11,410 bases of DNA, from NCBI GenBank assembly GCA_003175865.1, contig PSRF01000031.1:1-11410 (forward strand), read 5' to 3'. Shown here one piece after another: positions 1 to 11,392 of the stretch. The DNA is from Blastocatellia bacterium. GTDB taxonomy: Bacteria > Acidobacteriota > Blastocatellia > Pyrinomonadales > Pyrinomonadaceae. Each line of letters begins with the position of its first letter. Position 1 is the stretch's first letter. The translations under genes were made by a program, and so were the position numbers. The notes below the pieces were generated by a model, which saw only the letters and a list, made by a program, of their open reading frames with translations, made no database searches and was not told where the DNA came from.

Positions 1-2087
1 TCGGCCTTCGCTAAGAGATCCTTAATCTTCTTGCCCCACTCCTCGAGTTGCTTATCGAGCTTCTCTTTGAACTCTTTAATTTTCTTGGTGACGGAGTCGA
101 AGATTCCCTTGACGATGGCCAGGAAGGTGAGTATTCCCAGCGCATCCAGGATCTGCATAAACACGTCATAGACTTTTTGCAGGCCACCGATGACCTTGTC
201 CTTAACGTCATCAACTTTGGTGCGAAATTCTTTGAGCTTATTTTGTGCGGTTGGTAACCCGTCGTTGACCCACCACTCGCGAATTGGCTTGGTGAAGGGT
301 TTACCGTATTTTTCCCACAGATACTTAACGCCTAAATACAGCCCGTAGATGACCAATCCCAGTACTACGAATGGACCGGCGGGAGACAGCAACACGACGA
401 TTGCGCCTGCAACCTTCGCCCCTGTTTTGACATAACCCATGTAGGGTTTGAGCTTGGCTTTGATTTCTTCCCACTTGTCTAAAGCGTCATTAACAAAACT
501 CTGCATCCATGAGTCATAGGTGCGCTTTCCTTCCGCCAGGAAGTCAGTAACTGCGTTCCAGATTTCTGCTATCTCGTCGCGAAGTGGCTTTAAGGCTTTC
601 CAAATTGCTGAAGCTGTTTCTTCAACGTCCTTCCAGATTCCTTTAAGCTTCTTCTTCACCCAATCAAGGGCCGGAGCTCCATACTCGTTCCACAACTCTT
701 CAAGTTTCGTCGCAATGGTATTGAAACCTTTCTTGATTGAGTCGAGAACACCACTACCGAATTTCGTTACGACGTCAATGAGGTATTCCGCCAGTTGGCC
801 GATCGCTGCACACTTCCCGGCGATAAACCCTCCAATGGCGTGAATGGCACCGGATGCAAACGAGCCGACCATTTCGGCGAGCGTCGCCGCCAATCCTTTT
901 TCGCGAATGCTTGAGAGAATGCCACCAAAGAAGTTGTCGATACCGTTGCTTATGGCGTTCTTAAAGTAGTCTTTGATGTTCTTGAAGAAAGCGATCGCGC
1001 CTGGAGCGAGTTTTTCGATTTGGCCGATGGCCCACTGCGCACCTTTCTTAACGCCTGCAACGACGAGGTCTTTACCCTTCTTCACTCCTCCAACAACGAA
1101 ATCGGCGCCTTGGCCCAGGCCGGAAGTAACTTTATTTACGATCGGGTTGTCTAGTACTCCGTCGCGCTGAATGACACCGGAGGAGTCAGGCGCGACTGAG
1201 CTGGTGGTTCCCGAAGAGTCGGCAGTGATAGAGGTGGTTGCCTGCTGACCTTGTGTGACATTGTCTGCCTGGGCCTCTGCTTGTTTTTCGAGGTGGTCGT
1301 CGGCTGCACCAATCAGCACTTCGCCATTTGCAGTTGACTCTGATTGGGTTGGTGCCTGACCCGCTCTTTGTTGCTCGACGTGAGTTAACTCATGTGCGAG
1401 CAGGTGCTGACCTTCTTGCGACTCGGGCGCGTAGTTGCCAGCCGCGAAGTAGATGTCGCGACCGGTGGTGTAAGCATTGGCTCCTAGCGCCGCAGCTGAA
1501 GCAGCGGCGGCGGCATCGTTATGGATTCGAACATCTCTGAAGTCAGCGCCAAAGCGTTGCTCCATGTCCCGCCTGGTTGTTTCATCGAGTGGTTCCCCGC
1601 CACCTGTGGGAATTAGGTCGTGATCACCTGGTCCAGACGGTGCTATGGCAGCGGATGCTGATTGTTGCGCCTGAACTAGACGAAGTGATTCGGAGAGAGA
1701 GGTGAGGACCGATGTGCTTTCGCTAGAAGTACTGCACTTGGCGCATGTGCCCCCACAGGCACATTCGCGTTGGATTGTGTGGCCGCGATTTGAACTTAAC
1801 TGAATCTGGCTGACGAGTCGTTGCGTGTAGCGATTGCCATGCGTGTGTTGTGCGCGACTAAGGGCGATGACTCGAATACCGCTGTTTGGACTAACTGATA
1901 GCGCAGGGCTCCGAAATAATTTTCTGGGGCCGTGGTTCGCAAAATCTGCAGACGCACTGTCGAGTGCTCGCTGAAGTATGGCAGGCACGTGCTCCTCGCC
2001 TGCATCCTTCGCAGCACCTGACGCACTCGCGTCGTGAGTTGTCGTAACCTCCTCAGGTTCAAGTTGTACTTCCCTGGTGAAATACAT
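1..2087 (-). CDS. DUF4157 (eCIS core domain) protein with hydrophobic/amphipathic helical C-terminus, 3' end outside window
   Basis: The reading frame is open from an ATG at 2087 to the window edge, giving 695 codons without a stop, so the C-terminus is missing. Residues 57-96 carry a conserved lead-in (PALSVSPNS, then HGN). Residues 107-118 hold a four-Cys knuckle, C109-C111-C115-C118, preceded by IQR. The DUF4157 core spans about 175-275, with LGANAYTTGRDIYF and the zinc-peptidase motif HELTH at 232-236; E267 is the candidate third ligand. A second IQR at 306-308 ends the module. From 310 on the protein is Lys/Trp-rich amphipathic helix, with a hydrophobic stretch at 557-587 that could be a membrane hairpin. 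C425 is the only other cysteine. The ATG lies 3 nt after the stop of the upstream gene, which suggests coupled translation. Family knowledge places DUF4157 in eCIS loci. A pore-forming or tape-measure-like C-terminus is inference. Confidence 0.92.
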   Translation of the reverse strand, partial: MYFTREVQLEPEEVTTTHDASASGAAKDAGEEHVPAILQRALDSASADFANHGPRKLFRSPALSVSPNSGIRVIALSRAQHTHGNRYTQRLVSQIQLSSNRGHTIQRECACGGTCAKCSTSSESTSVLTSLSESLRLVQAQQSASAAIAPSGPGDHDLIPTGGGEPLDETTRRDMEQRFGADFRDVRIHNDAAAAASAAALGANAYTTGRDIYFAAGNYAPESQEGQHLLAHELTHVEQQRAGQAPTQSESTANGEVLIGAADDHLEKQAEAQADNVTQGQQATTSITADSSGTTSSVAPDSSGVIQRDGVLDNPIVNKVTSGLGQGADFVVGGVKKGKDLVVAGVKKGAQWAIGQIEKLAPGAIAFFKNIKDYFKNAISNGIDNFFGGILSSIREKGLAATLAEMVGSFASGAIHAIGGFIAGKCAAIGQLAEYLIDVVTKFGSGVLDSIKKGFNTIATKLEELWNEYGAPALDWVKKKLKGIWKDVEETASAIWKALKPLRDEIAEIWNAVTDFLAEGKRTYDSWMQSFVNDALDKWEEIKAKLKPYMGYVKTGAKVAGAIVVLLSPAGPFVVLGLVIYGLYLGVKYLWEKYGKPFTKPIREWWVNDGLPTAQNKLKEFRTKVDDVKDKVIGGLQKVYDVFMQILDALGILTFLAIVKGIFDSVTKKIKEFKEKLDKQLEEWGKKIKDLLAKA

Positions 2088-2090
2088 CGC

Positions 2091-2975
2091 TCAGTTTTCT
2101 GCATCTGCTGCGAGTACAAAAGTCTGACCACACTTTTCACATCGGACACTAACCTTAATTTCATCTGTGATAGCGACGTTATGCGCGAGGTAATGAAGGT
2201 TATCGAGAAAGTAAAAGTCGATGGCTGGCATTTGCAGAACCGCCTCAGGTGTTATTTCACCAGATACGCCATCCAAATATTGGAGCGCGACAGACAGTCG
2301 CAAAGCCGCATGAAATCCAGAAACGTCTTCGCGCCATTGCTCACGACCAGATACTTCAGATGGTGTCCACCGCTGCCACGCGGCACGCTCCATTGCCCCG
2401 TGTTGCGCATCTGCATAACCAAGGACTCCTGATCTACTCGCTGCAGGGATTCCAACAACAGTCGACGGAAGTTGGAACCTGATGCGAGAGCTATAAGGGA
2501 ATTGTCGCGTACGCAAGAACTTTGGAAAATGTTGAGCCAGCGAAGGAACTGCGAGAAACAATCGCTGATCAATTATTGGCCATGGTCCTGCTTGAAGAGC
2601 TGTGGTAAGCGCAGTGACACTGACCTCCGCTTCCCAACTGAGGCAGTGCGGACATTGCATGTAGATCAGACCTTGTTCAGCGAGCGTTTCGAAGAGTCTG
2701 TTTCGTGAGGCGACTAGTTGACCGGCAGCTTGCGAGTCGGCGTAAATAGCTCTCGCGTGTTCTATGTCGATGCTGCTTCCTTCCATCGACTTTATTAATC
2801 TTTTGAATTCAGCCGGAAACATGACCGACATTCTTTCGGGACTGCGATGCTCTGGTGGAAGTATGAGTGCAAAGACTTCTTCGTATTCCGGCACACGGAG
2901 CTCGATGTCCCTGTCTCTTCCTTGAAAGAGAATGCGAACGTGAAATAGAGATTCAAAACTGTTGGCTACAGTCAT
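2091..2975 (-). CDS. Hypothetical protein with two CxxC motifs (probable zinc ribbon)
   Basis: This encodes 294 residues. The ATG overlaps the stop of the 1819-residue gene by 4 nt (ATGA), and the TGA is followed after 3 nt by the next ATG, so it sits inside the operon and is probably translationally coupled on both sides. Two CxxC pairs are visible: C108/C111 (CPHC) and C279/C282 (CEKC, followed by GQTF). They are 167 residues apart and could bind one zinc together if the fold brings them close, or two separate metals. The 20 or so residues before the second pair (LDNLHYLAHN region, 257-266) look helical. There is no signal peptide or membrane segment. The C-terminal helix plus CxxCG arrangement is loosely like phage baseplate or tail assembly chaperones, which would suit an injection-particle locus, but I cannot confirm homology. 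Function unknown. Confidence 0.9.
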   Translation of the reverse strand: MTVANSFESLFHVRILFQGRDRDIELRVPEYEEVFALILPPEHRSPERMSVMFPAEFKRLIKSMEGSSIDIEHARAIYADSQAAGQLVASRNRLFETLAEQGLIYMQCPHCLSWEAEVSVTALTTALQAGPWPIIDQRLFLAVPSLAQHFPKFLRTRQFPYSSRIRFQLPSTVVGIPAASRSGVLGYADAQHGAMERAAWQRWTPSEVSGREQWREDVSGFHAALRLSVALQYLDGVSGEITPEAVLQMPAIDFYFLDNLHYLAHNVAITDEIKVSVRCEKCGQTFVLAADAEN

Positions 2976-5900
2976 TTCGGCAACATTGCCTCCAGATCTT
3001 TCATTGTGAGAGGTTCAAGGTTAGAGCGAGGTAGATCCATGTAGTCGAATTTTTCAAAAATCTTGACAGCATTGTCATTAAGCGGAATCACACGCAGAGT
3101 CTTGGTTCCAGGAGTATCGAGAGAGGGTTGAATATCTTCTCCCGGACCGATGGCACCTACGACCGCATTATCCTTGTTTTCGACGAACTTGGATTTAACC
3201 GTCTCAATCCACTTGCCGCCCGAAAAGACATTGATTTGTCCGTACAGTTGATAAATATTGACCAGACCAGTGGGATCGTTGCGTCTAAGCTCGGGAATCA
3301 AGCGCAGGCGGTTTGAGATTGGGGGAACTAAACCTTTCTTGATTGCCTCCATCTCATCAGCCTGTAGAGCCGCAACTTCCTCCTGCTTTAGCTGCTCTGT
3401 ATTCGGCTTTTCACCAAGCAACCTGGCAAGCTCACTAATCTCAGCTTCCTTGACCTGGGCTTTTAGTCCCACCAACTCAGATGGGAAAATGATCCCGCGT
3501 TTGTGGAAGCGTATGTCCTCAGCTTGTTTCTTTAGTGCGACCGCCGTCTTCAATCGTTTGATCTCATCTGTCTCTTCCTGCTTGCCGCCAGGCTCCGCCT
3601 TTGCGATGCCCCAAGCCTGGTCAATTAAACCGTTGATCGCGGCATTAGCATTTTCCACTCGCTGCAGTTCTGTCTTGTAGAAATCATGCTTGTCTATGAA
3701 CTCCTGATACGTCTTTACATCTGCGCTGTTTGTAAACATCAGCACAACTAACTCCTCAGGTGGTCCATACATCGTTTCAACAGTTATCTTGTATCGCTGG
3801 ACAGCTACCTCGACCATCTTAACGAGGGCGTTTGCCGTTAACTCCTCTCTCAAAAATCGCATTTCGGCGTGGAACTGCGACTCATCTGTTCCTTTAGGCA
3901 GAAGGGCCGGTCCACAGATGCTCATAGCTCGCTCGATGTAATGCTGGTGGATAACGGCAAGCAGGTGCTCGTACTTGTTTAATTCCTCGACATAAACTGC
4001 GCGGGCGGGAGAGTTCGGACCAAATAAACCTTTAGAACGAAAAGCCGCCTGACTTCTTGGATCAAGACGATACCGTGCATTTTCGATCATCAATCTGGCT
4101 TCTTTATCTTTCTTCTTTATGTCGTCATGATCGAGTCCCGAAGTACTGTAGACTTCCTCTGTCAGTGACTCTAATGCCTTTTTCAGTTTCTCCCATTGAG
4201 GCATGTCCCGAATGTCCTGCGCGCTCATGTTGTCGAGTGACATACTCGCTTCGATTGTGTCGAATGTTTTCTTAATCAGGTCTTTGGTAGGCTCTGGCTC
4301 AGGATTCCTGATCTCAGTCAGCGTTAGAGGGTACGACGGTGGTGTGCCCGGGCCACTGGGCGTTTTGTCCCACTGCTTCTGTTGCTCGGCCATCTTTTGA
4401 CGGAGACGCCTGCGTTCTTCGCCATAGACTTCTTGCCACGCAGCTACCTCCTCATTATTCGGATTCGCTTCGCGTTGAAGAGTGATGAACTGTTCGCGGT
4501 ATTCATCGAGTTCCTTGAGGCCAGCGTAGTTACCTTTGGCATCGTCGTAGGCAGTCTTGAATTCGCCGAGAATTTGTCGCTCCAGCTTAATTGCGTTGAT
4601 GCGATGATCGCGCGCGGTTATTCGAGCTTGCTCGCGCAGCGCGGTCGGATCAGGAACGGAAAGGTCTTCAAGCCCCTTCGCAGTACGGTCTGCGAGCATG
4701 ATTGATCCAACGATGACGCTGTATTCATTTACGAGTTTTCGAAGCGTCTGATAGACCCGAATAACATCAGAAGGATTGAAGCCGTATCGACGCTCAAGCC
4801 ATTCACGTACGCCTAGACCCTCCATGATCAATGGGCCGGCAAACGTAATGAGGAATCCGGCAATCATTACGACCGGGTGCCCTGATCTCATCATAACGTT
4901 GCCTAGGGCCATCAACCCGAGATTTAGGGCGTTGGCAATTATCGCGTAAGTAACCTCGATGTCTCGTTGTTCGGGTGTTTCGTAGTCGCGCGCGAGCACC
5001 GCACCAACATCAAGTAATGACAGGACTACGAAGACACCATTGCGGACTGGAATGCCGCGGACCATCTTGACGGCTGTGGCAGCTGCGCCAAGATTGTGCG
5101 CGGTGCCCAGCAACATCTCAGCGCCAGTCGCTCGACCTGCCTCGAAACGCTTCATGAGTTCACCTTGGCCTGTTACCGTTTGAACAAGCATCACAGCGCC
5201 AAGTCCTTTGCCGGCGAGATCCAAGCCGGCTCGCGTAGTACGTGTGGCTGCCGATTCCTGAGCTGGCTTTTGAATCGTGACTACGTGGGTCTCAATGATT
5301 TCTCCACTACCGACCGCTCGCTCGAGGGAACCTGCCTTCTTTTCGCCTTCGAGGGCCGTAATCTTTGCTTCGACACTCTTCAGATCGTCTGCCAGCAGAG
5401 TGCGCGTGACGCCCTCAGGCAAGGGCTTTTGATTCGGATCGGTTGGATTCAATTCGTTGGTGAGGATCGCTTTGTATCTTTGCAGTTCGATAAAGAGCTC
5501 GCCCGTAACTGAGTCGGGCGCACCGCCGCGCGCAATCTGAGCCCCAAGTTCGTTGATTCGCGATCTGACGGTCTTCAGTTCGAGCGCTCTTGCAGCGGGT
5601 GAACCTGGTGCTGGATTGGTTAGGTTTACTTCTTGTCGCAAAACAACCATTGCCATTTCAGTCAGGTGAAGATCGGTTGTGAGAGGCTTATCGAAATTCC
5701 ATTTTTCAAGTAACGCGTCAAGTTTCTGCCGTTCGGCGATAGCAGGTTCCTTAACGTCGCTTATGCTCTGAGTCGTTCGAGTTTTGGCCTTTGTCTGTAA
5801 AGCTTCCTGACCTGCCTTCAAGTACTCATTTAAGGCCGTATCGATCTGGCTGATCTTGCTGTCGATTTCCGAGAGTGTTTCCTGAATCGCTTTTTGCTTG

Positions 5901-8431
5901 CCTGGGTCTTTTTCGTCAGCAAGTTCGACTTGCTTTGTTTGCTTGTCGGCTTTCAGTTGATCGAGGGCCATCTTGGCTCTCTTAATCGACACTTCGCCCA
6001 TCGATGGTCCGGGAGCCTTAGCCGACGGAGTGCCTGCCAGTTTCGTTCCTTGGGTTGTAGTAATTTCAAAGAAGTTGACATCGCGGCCAGAAGTAGCAAG
6101 GTAGACCTCGAAACCAAGACTTCGCAGTAGCCAGATGTTTACTGGGTCTACGAGAGTCCCTGCTCCCGGCCGAGAGAGATCGGCTTGGGCGGAAACCACA
6201 ACGGCGTCAGCACCGTCTTTCATTTGGAAAGTTGAAAGGAAGTCGACTATCTTTCGTAGTTGTGTGGCAGGAAGACCCTCACCTTTCCAGCCTGACTGCA
6301 TGTGGTGAGTGGCGTCCCAAATCTGCACCTTTACTTCTCCAGCCGGCTGAAGTTTTTTCACTTGATCAGCAAAGCGTTTAGTAAGAGCATCCATGTCGTT
6401 GGCTCTGATGTCCGGCAGGACCATGAAGCGCAATCCGCTCGGCAATTGAATCAGGTAAGCTGATGCATATGGATCGACATCCTTTTTTTCGGTGCTGCGT
6501 CTGCGGTCTATTGTTTTTGGATCAGTTGGCTCCTTCATTGTCTCTCTGATTTCCAGAGGATCTTCCGCTTTGAACTCATCCGCTGCGCTTTCGTCGCCTG
6601 TCCGGATATCAACATTTACGACGTCGAGTTTGCCTCCCTTTGAAGGAATGAGAGTCCGCTCCTTAAGCTTTGGCTCCTCATTCATGCGTCGTTTCAGTTC
6701 ATCCGTAGCATGTTTCTCCCACCGTTCCTGCAAGATACCCTTGTCAGGGTGGTCATTTTCTAATTCCCACTGGGCTCGAGTCTTAGCGATCTCATCTTTG
6801 ATTGCGGCCTCAGTTTGTTTGAGTCGCTCTTTTTGCAGTTTGACGATCTCCTTGCGGAGTGCTTTGTAACCTGGCCAACGCTTCATCACGTCGTTGATGC
6901 GAATCGTGTCTACTCGGAAACGCTTCATGATTTCCGGAATCAAGGAGACATGGTCCTTATGAGCATGCGATATCAAAATCTCGCGGATCGGATCGGTCTT
7001 GATGAAGTCCGCCAACTTTTTCATGGTCGCATCAACCAGCGCGTCGTAGGTGGTAGCTAGTCCTCGATTGTTAACGCCGGCATCGATGATCACGACAGTA
7101 CCGTCCATCAGTCGCAGAGCTGATGTACTGGCCGCTCCAACAGCGAACTTCGTGTACTTCGTCGTGATGATGTGTTCAGGAGTAGCAGCAATGACATCAA
7201 GCTTGACGCCATCGTACGCCGTCACTACAGAACCGGGACTGACGGGTGGAGCGGAGGTCACCTTCGTCGTAGTTGTGACTGTCGTGGTGACAGTCGTGGG
7301 CGGCGGTTGAGCAGGTTTGGGAATCTGGACGGAAGTGATGGGAACCGCGTAGAGAGTTATGTCGTCTCTCTTAAAAATATCTGTGTGTACGACAACTCGA
7401 ATTTGCTCTTGATCGGATACACGCGTTGGATCAACCAGGAATGGCGCGTTGACCACGACATCGTGATCCGCCTTGCCTGGGTCAACGAGCGTAGCGCTGT
7501 CGACGAATGGCGGCGCGTCTGACACGGGCTTGTCGTCACGAAATCCGCCACCACCAAGTGGCTGGCGCTGGATAGATGGAGTACCTGGACCGCTTCCAGA
7601 TCCGTGAGGACCCAGTGGTGCCGTCGTCCCACTTCCTTGAACGATCGAGTCAGCAACGAGATCTGCTTCACGTTCTAAAGGATCTTCAGGACTTCCGATT
7701 TGAAGGCCATCGCGGTTGGGAAGAACTGATGTTGGTTGTTTGCCCTGCTGTTGTTGAATGGTGTGCGTTAATTCATGCGCCAGGAGCCGCTGACCATCGG
7801 TACTGTTTGGTGAATATTGACCACCACCAAAGTAGATGTCGCGACCGCTGGTGAAAGCATTGGCGCCTAACGACTCCGCGAGGTTTGCTGATTGTGAATC
7901 GGCGTGTACCCGAACCCCCTCGAGGGATGCACCAAAACGAGATTCCATCAGCTGTAGCGGACCGTTCGGGAGTCGGTCACCTCCGCCGTTTTGAGGAATG
8001 ACGGAATCAGATCCGAAAACATTGCCAGCCTCGCTACGCAGAATATTTTGTAATCCAATCTGTCCGGCCTCATTGGCTCGAGACGATTGACACGCCTGAC
8101 AGGTTCCCCCGCAAGCACATTCACGCTGAACTGTTCCAGTTGTGCTTGGTGTTCGTTGTATTGATCGCAACAAAGCCTGCTGCACAAACTGGTTGCCGTG
8201 ACTTTGTTGAACGCGCCGTAGAGCTGTATTGCGGAAATTGCTGTTGGGTGAGAGAAGAAGAGCCGGATGATTGAAGACTCGAGTAGCTGGAGGTTCTCCG
8301 AATGCGCCCGTCAAACCAGTACCCAGCGCGCCGCCGACTTGTTCATCAGACAATTCCGATGACGAAACCGGATCCGGCTCTCGCGTCGAGTCGAGCTCTT
8401 GCGCGCCACTGGTTTCTGTAGCGTGGGCCAT
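2972..8431 (-). CDS. Giant DUF4157 (eCIS core domain) protein with ComEC-like metallo-beta-lactamase domain and long helical tail
   Basis: This encodes 1819 residues from an ATG at 8431, with a weak AGGG 10 nt upstream. Domains in order: conserved lead-in (PALLLSPNS at 56-64, HGN at 78-80); IQR at 91-93; four-Cys knuckle C105-C107-C111-C114; DUF4157 core about 160-260 with HELTH at 219-223 and gluzincin-type E253xxxD257; IQR at 287-289; Pro/Thr-rich linker 371-400; metallo-beta-lactamase domain about 400-798; coiled-coil region 810-1060; hydrophobic helices 1065-1206; long charged helical tail to the end. The lactamase fold shows IIDAG (448-452), HAHKDH (489-494), D674 and the HH pair 709-710. 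Its closing strand order (VVVS...LRSLGFEVYLATSG) resembles the ComEC/Rec2 extracellular nuclease branch. Only one cysteine lies outside the knuckle (C1506). No signal peptide is seen. It is probably an eCIS cargo or cargo-like enzyme; the substrate is unknown, with hydrolysis of phosphodiesters the best guess from the lactamase branch. Confidence 0.95.
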   Translation of the reverse strand: MAHATETSGAQELDSTREPDPVSSSELSDEQVGGALGTGLTGAFGEPPATRVFNHPALLLSPNSNFRNTALRRVQQSHGNQFVQQALLRSIQRTPSTTGTVQRECACGGTCQACQSSRANEAGQIGLQNILRSEAGNVFGSDSVIPQNGGGDRLPNGPLQLMESRFGASLEGVRVHADSQSANLAESLGANAFTSGRDIYFGGGQYSPNSTDGQRLLAHELTHTIQQQQGKQPTSVLPNRDGLQIGSPEDPLEREADLVADSIVQGSGTTAPLGPHGSGSGPGTPSIQRQPLGGGGFRDDKPVSDAPPFVDSATLVDPGKADHDVVVNAPFLVDPTRVSDQEQIRVVVHTDIFKRDDITLYAVPITSVQIPKPAQPPPTTVTTTVTTTTKVTSAPPVSPGSVVTAYDGVKLDVIAATPEHIITTKYTKFAVGAASTSALRLMDGTVVIIDAGVNNRGLATTYDALVDATMKKLADFIKTDPIREILISHAHKDHVSLIPEIMKRFRVDTIRINDVMKRWPGYKALRKEIVKLQKERLKQTEAAIKDEIAKTRAQWELENDHPDKGILQERWEKHATDELKRRMNEEPKLKERTLIPSKGGKLDVVNVDIRTGDESAADEFKAEDPLEIRETMKEPTDPKTIDRRRSTEKKDVDPYASAYLIQLPSGLRFMVLPDIRANDMDALTKRFADQVKKLQPAGEVKVQIWDATHHMQSGWKGEGLPATQLRKIVDFLSTFQMKDGADAVVVSAQADLSRPGAGTLVDPVNIWLLRSLGFEVYLATSGRDVNFFEITTTQGTKLAGTPSAKAPGPSMGEVSIKRAKMALDQLKADKQTKQVELADEKDPGKQKAIQETLSEIDSKISQIDTALNEYLKAGQEALQTKAKTRTTQSISDVKEPAIAERQKLDALLEKWNFDKPLTTDLHLTEMAMVVLRQEVNLTNPAPGSPAARALELKTVRSRINELGAQIARGGAPDSVTGELFIELQRYKAILTNELNPTDPNQKPLPEGVTRTLLADDLKSVEAKITALEGEKKAGSLERAVGSGEIIETHVVTIQKPAQESAATRTTRAGLDLAGKGLGAVMLVQTVTGQGELMKRFEAGRATGAEMLLGTAHNLGAAATAVKMVRGIPVRNGVFVVLSLLDVGAVLARDYETPEQRDIEVTYAIIANALNLGLMALGNVMMRSGHPVVMIAGFLITFAGPLIMEGLGVREWLERRYGFNPSDVIRVYQTLRKLVNEYSVIVGSIMLADRTAKGLEDLSVPDPTALREQARITARDHRINAIKLERQILGEFKTAYDDAKGNYAGLKELDEYREQFITLQREANPNNEEVAAWQEVYGEERRRLRQKMAEQQKQWDKTPSGPGTPPSYPLTLTEIRNPEPEPTKDLIKKTFDTIEASMSLDNMSAQDIRDMPQWEKLKKALESLTEEVYSTSGLDHDDIKKKDKEARLMIENARYRLDPRSQAAFRSKGLFGPNSPARAVYVEELNKYEHLLAVIHQHYIERAMSICGPALLPKGTDESQFHAEMRFLREELTANALVKMVEVAVQRYKITVETMYGPPEELVVLMFTNSADVKTYQEFIDKHDFYKTELQRVENANAAINGLIDQAWGIAKAEPGGKQEETDEIKRLKTAVALKKQAEDIRFHKRGIIFPSELVGLKAQVKEAEISELARLLGEKPNTEQLKQEEVAALQADEMEAIKKGLVPPISNRLRLIPELRRNDPTGLVNIYQLYGQINVFSGGKWIETVKSKFVENKDNAVVGAIGPGEDIQPSLDTPGTKTLRVIPLNDNAVKIFEKFDYMDLPRSNLEPLTMKDLEAMLPK

Positions 8432-8504: not shown

Positions 8505-9164
8505 CTAAGCTTCAGTCACAAGGGGGGCAATCGTGATGTCGACAGTCCTGTCGTGGTCGACATTTAAAACAAAACTCGCGTATGACGTTGTCAGTTGCTT
8601 CGGATCTTCGCCGCCAGGCCAGATCGAGGTCATTGCGTAGTTTTCTGCTGTTTCACGCGTTGAAGATTTGCTGTGATAACCAACGGCGAGACTGTACGAA
8701 CCCTCCAGCACACTCAATTCAAAACTATCGCTGTCCAGGCGTTGTTGATAGAACCACGACTCGATAACGTTCTCGTCGACAATGTTGAAGAATTTCTCCA
8801 AACCCTCAGGAATTCCGTGCACGTGGAGAGGATCGATTCGAAGAAGCAAATAAGGTGGCCACCCTTCGGCTGACTTGATATGTCCACGGATTGAGTGAAG
8901 CTCATCGTTTTTTATATCTACGCGTATTGCTTCGCGTTCGCGCAGAGTGATCGTTCGCTGGACGATTGCGAGGACCGGGCCTTGGACCTTGGCCATTACA
9001 ATGGCGCTACTGGGCAGTTGGTTTTCAGGTAAATTGAATTGGAAGACACCGAACGTGTCACTTGTCGCACTTCCCAACAACTGGTTCATGTCGGTAGAGA
9101 TCAGTAACACTCGGCCTTCTGCGAGTGGTCTGCCATCAAAGTTGAGAGTGCCGTTTATCATCAC
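8505..9164 (-). CDS. Small two-domain beta-sandwich protein (carboxypeptidase-regulatory-like)
   Basis: This encodes 219 residues. The start could be GTG at 9164 or the adjoining ATG at 9161; both lie about 20 nt after the stop of the upstream DUF4157 gene. Residues 3-43 read INGTLNFDGRPLAEG, then a beta stretch, then TSDTFGVFQFNLP. This is the pattern of carboxypeptidase-regulatory/transthyretin-like beta-sandwich domains (G-x-dG-x-PL-x-G ... T-d-x-G-x-F-x-F). A second half, 88-219, again looks beta-rich and starts HSIRGHIKSAEG. There is no signal peptide, lipobox or membrane segment, unlike most secreted proteins with this domain, so it probably acts in the cytoplasm or as part of the particle or cargo. 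It contains no cysteine. Its role is unknown; a structural or binding accessory to the flanking DUF4157 proteins is inferred from position only. Confidence 0.88.
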   Translation of the reverse strand: MMINGTLNFDGRPLAEGRVLLISTDMNQLLGSATSDTFGVFQFNLPENQLPSSAIVMAKVQGPVLAIVQRTITLREREAIRVDIKNDELHSIRGHIKSAEGWPPYLLLRIDPLHVHGIPEGLEKFFNIVDENVIESWFYQQRLDSDSFELSVLEGSYSLAVGYHSKSSTRETAENYAMTSIWPGGEDPKQLTTSYASFVLNVDHDRTVDITIAPLVTEA

Positions 9165-9182: not shown

Positions 9183-10661
9183 TCACTGAATGTAGTCAAA
9201 TCTTGGATACTCTTTGACGAGTTCCCTCTTGAAATCAGAAGGCATGCCTGTCGCCGCTGAGCCCGATTGAAAAGTAGTAGTTCTCGTTACGCTGGTCTTT
9301 GATGTGTATTCCCACGTTACAACGAGAGAAACACGGTAGATGGTCTTGTATTCGCGAACTAAGAAATCATCGAAGTGATCTTTCTCTATTACTTTGGTTG
9401 CTCCTGCATCAAACTGCTTTGCAATGATGTCTGAGAATTCTCCGGGACGGTCGTAGATCGTGGTTCCAGTAGTGGTCCGGATGTTTATGCCGCCCACCTC
9501 ATAAAGAGGAGTGTCCGTCTTCGCCGAATCAACGTGATACTTCGGCGAGGTGGGATCAGTTGTCAGGTCCACCGTTCGGCCGCCTTGGACTGGAAGACCG
9601 GTTGCAGCGACATGTTTCACCGAACCATCAGTCTGCGTCGACAGAATCTCTGACCAAAGAAATTGAATCCAACGAGACTCTTCCGACTTTCCCCCTGAAT
9701 AACCGATCGAAAATCCTCCTGTACGCGTCGCCTCGCCCACCTTGTATTCAACTTCAGTGTGGACCGAGACTTCGCCGTCGCCGACCTTCTCTTTGAGCTT
9801 TTCAGTACCAGCTTTGACCGGTGTGAGAGACGTCTCAGGTTTTGCGGGAGGCGGGGCGTTCAAGTGAAAGAGAGCTTGAGCCTGTGCATCGCCGCTGAGT
9901 GAGAGTCGTATCTCCGCTTCAAGGTCACTTCTGAACCTGGCAGCATACGCGTCTTTAACCTTCTTAATTTTTGTGGCATCGCGATTCAACGATTTCAAAA
10001 GATCGATAATTGCTGGCTCATCTACTCCAACTCCTGCAATTGCATCGTGCAACTTCTGCGCAACTTCGGCTTCCGTTAACGGTGCGCGATGAATCGAACC
10101 CGGCGTTGGCAACGACATCCGCTCCACGTGGCGCCACCTTGCCGAACTCGGGTATCTTCCTATCGAATCTGCTTCTCGTTCGCTGGGATCGTCGTTAGAA
10201 ACAATGTCCGTTTGAGAGAGTAATCGCGTTGATTGCTCGGATGGTTCATTGAGCAGTGCATGTGTGAGTTCGTGGGCTAGCAGCTCCCTGCCTTCGGAAG
10301 CAAAAGGGGCATATTTGCCTCGGCCAAAATAGATATCGCGTCCTTGTGTGTAAGCGGCTGCGCCAAGTGAGTCAGCTGACTTTGCCGCGCTGTTGTCAGT
10401 ATGAAGATGGATGCCGGCGCGGTCTCGCTCTTCTGATGAGTCAATCAGCGTATCAATACGATTAGCATCTGATTCCTTGTCGCGACTACTGCGGTTTGCA
10501 TCTTTACCTCCGACAAGATGCTGTACAGATTGATTACCGGCAGCTCGTTGTAGGTCCAGGAGTGACGCCGCAGCAGGGTGTACACTATCGGCGGCCGAAT
10601 CTTCTTCTGCTTTGTCAGCTTCGGATACACGGGTTTTGTTTTTGAAAAACCACCACGACAT
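9183..10661 (-). CDS. DUF4157 (eCIS core domain) protein with an annexin-like repeat and beta-rich C-terminus
   Basis: This encodes 492 residues. The ATG overlaps the stop of the upstream gene by one base (TGATG), which indicates reinitiation. Residues 34-50 hold the family lead-in (LLDLQRAAGNQSVQHLV). The DUF4157 core is at 80-167: LGAAAYTQGRDIYF, HELTH at 130-134 and E161xxxD165, so the candidate zinc ligands H130, H134 and E161 are all present. A SIHR at 189-192 ends the module where the sister proteins have IQR. Residues 197-268 match an annexin repeat (GVGVDE loop at 210-215, then a helix pattern ending LSLSG). The classical acidic calcium-cap residue appears to be Ser254 in a hand alignment. 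Residues 285-492 are rich in Thr/Val beta strands and unrecognised. Unlike its two paralogues it has no four-Cys knuckle, and I see no cysteine at all. Likely an eCIS cargo or accessory protein. Confidence 0.94.
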   Translation of the reverse strand: MSWWFFKNKTRVSEADKAEEDSAADSVHPAAASLLDLQRAAGNQSVQHLVGGKDANRSSRDKESDANRIDTLIDSSEERDRAGIHLHTDNSAAKSADSLGAAAYTQGRDIYFGRGKYAPFASEGRELLAHELTHALLNEPSEQSTRLLSQTDIVSNDDPSEREADSIGRYPSSARWRHVERMSLPTPGSIHRAPLTEAEVAQKLHDAIAGVGVDEPAIIDLLKSLNRDATKIKKVKDAYAARFRSDLEAEIRLSLSGDAQAQALFHLNAPPPAKPETSLTPVKAGTEKLKEKVGDGEVSVHTEVEYKVGEATRTGGFSIGYSGGKSEESRWIQFLWSEILSTQTDGSVKHVAATGLPVQGGRTVDLTTDPTSPKYHVDSAKTDTPLYEVGGINIRTTTGTTIYDRPGEFSDIIAKQFDAGATKVIEKDHFDDFLVREYKTIYRVSLVVTWEYTSKTSVTRTTTFQSGSAATGMPSDFKRELVKEYPRFDYIQ

Positions 10662-11392
10662 CAGCTTGCATTCGCATCTCGAGATTCGACGTCTGACTTA
10701 AAGAGCTGTTCAAGCTCGGGATTGATAATCTTGTTTTCAAAATCCACCCACACTCGTTTGTCCTTACTACAGTCGTAACCGCGACATGGTAGTGGTCGTT
10801 TGTCACGCACCGTACAGCTACTAGTCTGGCGATCGAGATGGCGGCAATAGCCATCAGCATCTTGAGCAATCAGATATGGTCTGCCGAGATCCCACTTGAT
10901 CACTCCCTCTTCCACATCCTGTTGCGAGAGAGCAAAACTCATCCGACAGCACGCCGCTTTGCAGAGATGAACTCGGTTCTCACAATCAATCTCGACTGTT
11001 TCCGAAAAGTTGTACTTATCACGTTCATCCTCCTGCATTGCTACGCCCATTCCGCCATCTAGAAACTTGTCGAGGAGTCGAGCGGCAACTTCGCGTTTCT
11101 TGACTTCGAGTTGATCAATTTCCACCAAGCCTTTTTCCGTTAACACTTCAATCAGCGCATAGAGAAAGGAAGCACTCTCCAATAGCTTGCTCGTATTTGA
11201 ATTCAATCGGCTGTGGCAGTAGAGCAAACCACCAGCGACTTCATTGCGCCGCAGTGATTGAATATTGACCAGTTGTGTCATTTGACGATCCTCAATGTCA
11301 TCAATTTCCAATGCGGCAGACTGTCCAGTCTGCCGTGCGGAGCCGCGCGAAGAGTGTCGTTCCGGAACTAACGTCTCCTCGGGCGATGCCAC
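10661..11392 (-). CDS. YkgJ-type CxxxCC cysteine-cluster protein, first gene of the visible operon
   Basis: The frame is open from the stop at 10661 up to the window edge. A GTG at 11392 gives 243 residues, but translation could begin outside the window, or at ATG 11281 (206 residues), which has a GAGG 8 nt upstream. I find 11281 attractive because the first 37 residues are low-complexity and overlap a perfect palindrome. Eight cysteines are clustered: C137, C144, C148, C149, C183, C193, C203 and C208. The CKAACC block and the later RPLPCRGYDC are the signature of the zinc/iron-chelating CxxCxxCC (YkgJ, PF03692-type) family. The N-terminal part (38-115) is helical. Members of this family are thought to bind metal and may act in oxidative modification; the target here is unknown. 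It is coupled by a one-base overlap to the annexin-like DUF4157 gene. Confidence 0.88.
   Translation of the reverse strand: MASPEETLVPERHSSRGSARQTGQSAALEIDDIEDRQMTQLVNIQSLRRNEVAGGLLYCHSRLNSNTSKLLESASFLYALIEVLTEKGLVEIDQLEVKKREVAARLLDKFLDGGMGVAMQEDERDKYNFSETVEIDCENRVHLCKAACCRMSFALSQQDVEEGVIKWDLGRPYLIAQDADGYCRHLDRQTSSCTVRDKRPLPCRGYDCSKDKRVWVDFENKIINPELEQLFKSDVESRDANAS
11290..11293 (-). promoter_or_regulatory. Candidate ribosome binding site GAGG for an internal start at 11281
   Basis: On the minus strand GAGG is followed by an 8-nt spacer and ATG (11279-11281). This is the best ribosome-binding match near the 5' end of the cysteine-cluster gene. It argues for a 206-residue protein rather than the longer GTG-started form. 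Confidence 0.45.
11314..11335. repeat. Perfect 10-bp-arm palindrome (CGGCAGACTG-TC-CAGTCTGCCG)
   Basis: Two perfectly complementary 10-base arms flank a two-base centre. The element lies just upstream of the possible start at 11281 and inside the longer open frame. As RNA it could fold with a four-base loop and a nine-pair stem. No T run follows on either side, so it is not a typical intrinsic terminator. A REP-like intergenic repeat or an operator are the main options. Confidence 0.6.

Follow-up and report, generated by a model that had tools for sequence, protein, structure and literature searches.

An internal metallo-beta-lactamase domain in a giant DUF4157 protein, a likely cargo of an extracellular contractile injection system in Blastocatellia

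Can a metallo-beta-lactamase (MBL) hydrolase serve as the payload of an extracellular contractile injection system (eCIS)? The question is raised by a protein of 1819 amino acids (aa) encoded at 2972..8431 on the minus strand of contig PSRF01000031.1 from Blastocatellia bacterium (assembly GCA_003175865.1, family Pyrinomonadaceae). The window analyzed here is this one entire contig of 11,410 bases, the genome itself being 62% complete; according to the list of open reading frames (ORFs), all main genes of the window are on the minus strand, as are all window features given below. By the ORF list and Pfam, the protein consists of a leader, a DUF4157 domain, an MBL domain and a long C-terminal part. 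DUF4157 (PF13699, now called eCIS_core in Pfam) marks eCIS cargo, and toxins are often fused behind it (PMC8213781; PMC11297309; PMC8894135; PMC11126660; PMC13277306). The protein would belong to this known kind of cargo, the new element being the MBL domain as its putative payload: a search of the open literature by title and beginning of abstract, one that did not extend to supplements, preprints or the majority of subscription journals, yielded no report of an MBL cargo of DUF4157 proteins or eCISs.

Domain architecture of the 1819-aa protein

DUF4157 occupies aa 154–230 (7742..7972; E 2.1e-29, 101.9 bits against a cut-off of 22), with the motif HELTH, taken from the alignment, at aa 219–223. 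It precedes the MBL domain, in agreement with an earlier reading of the locus (the sequence-only reading), which had proposed a ComEC-like MBL domain fused behind DUF4157 and acting as a hydrolase or nuclease effector. The domain spans approximately aa 421–798 (6038..7171): the Pfam family Lactamase_B (PF00753) matches aa 443–526 with 24.9 bits against a cut-off of 22.7 (27.4 bits with a shorter piece), and a structure model built with ComEC relatives (the second model, see below) aligns with ComEC 9ic4 through its residues 23–399. The interval 6038–7234, given by the sequence-only reading, correctly corresponds to aa 400–798, and the residues it named are all in place.

The D-x-G strand (IIDAG from aa 448) is followed by HxHxDH, here HAHKDH at aa 489–494 (6950..6967), the presumed metal ligands; HxHxDH or HxDxDH is aligned there in 40 of 40 ComEC rows. 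Further on are D674 (6410..6412), a presumed bridging metal ligand, and H709–H710 (6302..6307), presumed ligand or substrate histidines, aligned with the ComEC Asp and HH, respectively, in a register that in both cases depends on the alignment chosen. H561 and H574, the sole other histidines between H494 and H709, lie in or near a helical insertion formed by helices of the second model at approximately aa 514–585 (6677..6892). When the whole protein is shuffled, H.[HD].DH arises in 45 of 20,000 shuffles, and the ordered set D.G...H.H.DH...D...HH, in none of 20,000. The assignment of the domain to MBL hydrolases is solid, and the order of the metal ligands is supported as well.

The first 60 residues contain no hydrophobic stretch, the best 19-residue mean hydropathy being 0.46, which fits the suggestion that the protein has no signal peptide. 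The C-terminal part (aa 830–1819, 2975..5944, approximately 990 residues) has hydrophobic stretches at aa 1127–1147 and 1184–1208, as seen from hydropathy. No Pfam family scores above the cut-off in this part, the best sub-cut-off E-value being 0.056, and a phmmer search against 1284 fetched ORFs yielded nothing better than E 0.035.

Synteny with an eCIS operon

A genome of the same genus (G015) contains an eCIS operon syntenic with the window (contig C7, approximately 73–113 kb). Its genes follow in the order Pvc16_N, two sheath proteins, CIS_tube, Baseplate_J, Tail_P2_I and an AAA ATPase with a winged-helix domain, and after the latter, a CxxCxxCC protein, a DUF4157-annexin protein, a 233-aa protein and three DUF4157 proteins, whose open frames are 1451, 1710 and 1695 aa long. 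The window genes match this locus in order: the CxxCxxCC protein (10661..11392) with 80% identity, the DUF4157-annexin protein (9183..10661) with 62%, and the 219-aa protein (8505..9164) with 43%. The 1819-aa and the 1451-aa proteins are alike at the front only (44% identity over aa 3–294; 48% over aa 4–301 in a second search). Given this likeness and the syntenic position, the 1819-aa protein occupies a cargo slot, its front end being shared and its rear end exchanged. The last window gene (3..2087), cut by the contig end, shows 60% identity to the front of the 1695-aa cargo protein. In both the 1710- and 1695-aa proteins, PT-HINT is above the cut-off and GIY-YIG below it.

The contig itself ends before any eCIS structural gene. 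Since the G015 locus includes eCIS genes for the sheath, tube, baseplate and ATPase, the synteny makes the 1819-aa protein most likely an eCIS cargo, and the effector idea gains support from it. Cgo1 and Cgo2 of AlgoCIS have been placed in the tube lumen, and Tme of Streptomyces davawensis is described as a DUF4157 nuclease effector (PMC8894135; PMC11126660; PMC8213781). Like these proteins and EATs, the 1819-aa protein is long, with an N-terminal DUF4157, and synteny would place it in an eCIS operon. Tme is a nuclease cargo, as the 1819-aa protein may be; the nuclease of Tme is EndA-like and C-terminal, whereas the candidate payload of the 1819-aa protein is the internal MBL domain.

Similarity of the MBL domain to ComEC and other proteins

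The sequence-only reading had likened the domain to the C-terminal nuclease-like domain of ComEC/Rec2, and this likeness holds in part. In an hhalign comparison, the profile of five ComEC MBL domains from the phylum (A3) matches aa 427–566 with 95.1% probability, but a pair of RNase J proteins yields 92.7%, so the N-terminal half resembles the two to about the same extent, and the match is not ComEC-specific; the control, aa 845–1644 of the same protein, yields 0.2%. Scored on a profile built from 60 ComEC domains of viral contigs, the protein reaches 29.1 bits, with the match confined to aa 430–548 and not extending across the two halves of the nuclease domain; an RNase J reaches 27.9 bits, and two ComECs from the phylum, 218.2 and 146.6 bits. 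As the protein and this RNase J score about equally, sequence alone places the domain in the MBL superfamily, no closer to ComEC than an RNase J is.

In a MAFFT alignment with 60 ComEC C-terminal halves, D674, H709 and H710 coincide with the ComEC Asp and HH in every one of the 60 rows and in four of four trims; with 30 ComEC rows, both D and HH are so placed in none of 200 full shuffles, and in 53 of 200 if D and HH are held in place. This alignment of D674 and H709 recurs in all four trims of the C-terminal half, while the profile score of the same half is at chance (see below), and we consider the register consistent with ComEC, not a proof of it. In Moorella glycerini ComEC, the metal is engaged by H598, D600, D602, H603 and D700, and the DNA by H725 and S728 (PMC12455585). 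Counted along the alignment, these positions correspond to H489, H491, D493, H494, D674 and H709, S728 having no evident partner; His at the position of D600, as at H491, is present in 41 of 60 ComEC domains. The distance from HAHKDH to D674 is 180 residues, versus a median of 92.5 in 40 ComEC rows.

The second model has an MBL fold (predicted template modelling score, pTM, 0.69), so the expected alpha-beta-beta-alpha arrangement is present in a model of moderate quality. The proposed ComEC-like order of the final strands is also seen there, but in a model itself built from ComEC relatives. Among solved structures, ComEC, Cas14, Pce and RNase J tie as its best matches, and the majority of the listed solved matches are nucleases. 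ComEC/Rec2 (PDB 9ic4) differs from the domain in signature motifs, considered below, and in the helical insertion; Pce/CbpE, a teichoic acid phosphorylcholine esterase (PDB 1wra, 2bib), has 11% identity to it in the structural alignment. At E <= 1, no Pfam family of the ComEC/Rec2 competence membrane or OB domain, of the choline-binding repeats of Pce/CbpE, or of the beta-CASP domain (RNase J and other beta-CASP nucleases; Cas14 of type VII CRISPR) is found in the 1819-aa protein. The label “ComEC-like” is plausible for the domain: the later Asp and HH align as in ComEC, but the score of the C-terminal half, the altered signatures and the similar score of an RNase J do not single out ComEC.

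Related proteins in other genomes

The MBL domain is matched in one of 59 relatives, four of 162 genomes of the class and five of 396 genomes of the phylum, its own genome being counted each time. The six other loci matched (L002–L007) we take, by eye, to be RNase J-like or ComEC-like. No relative of the domain was found in scans of genome contigs and viral contigs, where exact peptide patterns detect close relatives only, or by tblastn in plasmids and phages; the absence of close relatives rests on smaller sequence collections. In a whole-length search, with at most two candidates scored per genome, 51 of 162 class genomes match, all within approximately aa 4–315 except for the protein itself. 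The first 830 aa are matched by 87 plasmid records, none of which covers 80% of that region (25 of the 87 being among the matches listed).

DUF4157 is matched in 48 of 396 sampled genomes of the phylum. From the window and 110 fetched loci we collected 214 DUF4157 ORFs, an uneven sample of best matches and hand-picked larger ORFs with duplicates included (L086 repeats G015, and L131 repeats G021), and two of the 214 carry H.[HD].DH: the window protein and a 1227-aa protein (L049:9406-13086) from a genome of the same family (G017). The latter has HTDADH and PHHGG, with the motif at aa 407, and lies in an eCIS operon that also contains sheath, Baseplate_J and AAA genes. Both proteins have DUF4157 followed by an MBL-type motif set, but their MBL regions are dissimilar (15 of 52 residues identical, E 0.19, not significant). 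Pfam misses the MBL domain of the G017 protein, whose nearest relatives in the phylum are, weakly, ComECs (hhalign 79.7%), with 1.9 bits on the 60-row ComEC profile. This MBL region is matched in G017 and four other genomes (396 searched), three of the loci L082–L085 (L082, L083 and L085) being read as ComEC, and has no match in the plasmid search.

Two further genes are found downstream of the G017 operon (L080:184-3299). One is subtilisin-like, as recognized by eye; the other, a ComEC-like MBL gene in its own right (L080:2130-3299), scores 49.5 bits on the 60-row profile, and no viral relatives of its MBL were found. One more candidate, L120:11840-13603 with HVDADH, was dropped, as it resembles an antisense frame. 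Proteins of L101, L138 and L150 near DUF4157 loci match the ComEC profile; they also match flavodiiron, rhodanese-MBL or plain MBL families and are not DUF4157 fusions.

Proposed function and alternative explanations

We tentatively favor the reading that the 1819-aa protein is an eCIS cargo with an active two-metal MBL hydrolase, likely cleaving nucleic-acid phosphodiester bonds. The leader and DUF4157 would mark the protein for the eCIS particle. H489, H491, D493, H494, D674 and H709 would hold two metals, and a metal-bound water would attack a phosphate, the likeliest bond being a nucleic-acid phosphodiester in the target cell. With their two hydrophobic stretches, the last 990 residues may help the protein to cross a membrane or to sit in one. 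The product of the overlapping 294-aa orphan gene (2091..2975), which starts with an ATG inside the ATGA shared with the end of the MBL gene's stop codon, may shield the producer or assist loading.

Several observations weigh against this reading. The C-terminal half (aa 601–800) scores –1.8 bits on the profile of ComEC C-terminal halves, which is the chance level: as many as 1052 of 1199 reported shuffles (2000 made), 686 of 926 reported natural tiles (1650 made) and 14 of 15 reported tiles of the 1819-aa protein itself score at least as high. The ComEC signatures VGQGD, N..S, HHGS and GHP are altered, with A433 for Q, Y655 for N, A658 for S and R754 for H (the ComEC residue is present in 39 of 40 rows at each position) and HHMQ in place of HHGS. 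The second model rests on 40 ComEC rows that were chosen for aligning D674 and HH. In the genome's own assembly, 62% complete, no match to a sheath gene was found, other structural genes not having been sought there. Finally, the MBL domain is internal, versus the C-terminal toxin domains of published DUF4157 proteins, which are described as following long linkers (PMC8213781).

The altered HHGS bears also on the substrate, as the serine of this motif, reported to aid the ComEC nuclease (PMC12455585), is not retained. An eCIS cargo whose MBL domain hydrolyzes something other than nucleic acid, e.g., phosphocholine or another phosphoester of the envelope or lipid, as Pce does, would accommodate this loss. 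Pce is the first Foldseek match of the second model (E 2.3e-06), with ComEC ranking fifth, and takes ranks 1 and 2 for the single-sequence model, there non-significantly (E 0.38 and 0.48); HxHxDH is common to Pce (PMC5031224) and the 1819-aa protein. Against this explanation, which we consider rather unlikely, stands the majority of nucleases among the listed solved matches. To a similar, low degree we credit a cargo with its toxic part in aa 830–1819, where the acting part could lie, and with the MBL domain as an accessory, e.g., for loading, processing or crossing. The internal position of the domain in both the window and the G017 proteins, the published C-terminal toxins and the two G015 cargo proteins ending in PT-HINT with weak GIY-YIG matches speak for it; Pfam recognizes no toxin family in aa 830–1819, which is weak evidence to the contrary.

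That the protein is not delivered or not active, being a retained DUF4157 protein whose MBL domain is structural or has decayed, seems very improbable: the missing sheath match and the altered signatures would fit, but the reading frame is intact, the set of presumed ligands complete, and the neighbors are conserved with an operon encoding the machine in G015. Going beyond the preferred reading of an injected two-metal hydrolase, one may suppose that eCISs of this family have at least twice, in the window and in G017, taken up MBL two-metal phosphodiesterases as payloads fused to DUF4157, the window protein being an injected nuclease with a ComEC-like coupling to a hydrophobic part for the target membrane in one delivered polypeptide, and the overlapping orphan, its cognate partner; in this full form we regard the proposal as doubtful.

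Neighboring genes

The CxxCxxCC protein is assigned by PF03692 with 23.1 bits against a cut-off of 23; in G015 it sits between the AAA ATPase and the cargo genes, and a similar one is present in L057 (39%). In the DUF4157-annexin protein both PF13699 and the annexin repeat PF00191 are above the cut-offs, and the fusion is conserved in G015; the combination was earlier noted in Haliangium (PMC3894181). The 219-aa protein has a weak, sub-cut-off MG3-like match.

The orphan carries two CxxC pairs and, in a search of 162 class genomes (161 others), has a match in its own genome only; it is a possible immunity or loading partner. The truncated gene at 3..2087 encodes DUF4157 (PF13699) and a tape-measure-like part (PHROG 1272, E 7.9e-11), and resembles the published Tme type. 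Its G015 counterpart ends in PT-HINT with a weak GIY-YIG match, the corresponding end in the window lying beyond the contig. In G015, the giant DUF4157 proteins L039:3029-8158 and L039:8134-13218 have a terminal PT-HINT and a sub-cut-off GIY-YIG-like stretch, and may be read as self-cleaving eCIS cargo in the style of polymorphic toxins. PADLOC gave zero matches for three proteins, and Rfam and tRNA searches of the window found nothing.

Implications

DUF4157 strongly marks eCIS payloads, yet most DUF4157 effectors are otherwise unannotated: 983 of 1130 predicted ones are reported to have no other annotated domain (PMC11297309). Here, a recognizable enzyme fold with its presumed ligands intact is found, which suggests that MBL hydrolases can act as injected payloads and predicts a testable activity. 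With the MBL domain internal in both giant proteins, the question arises which part of them does the work inside the target cell. Should the activity be nucleolytic, an MBL enzyme would join the nuclease payloads already described for eCISs.
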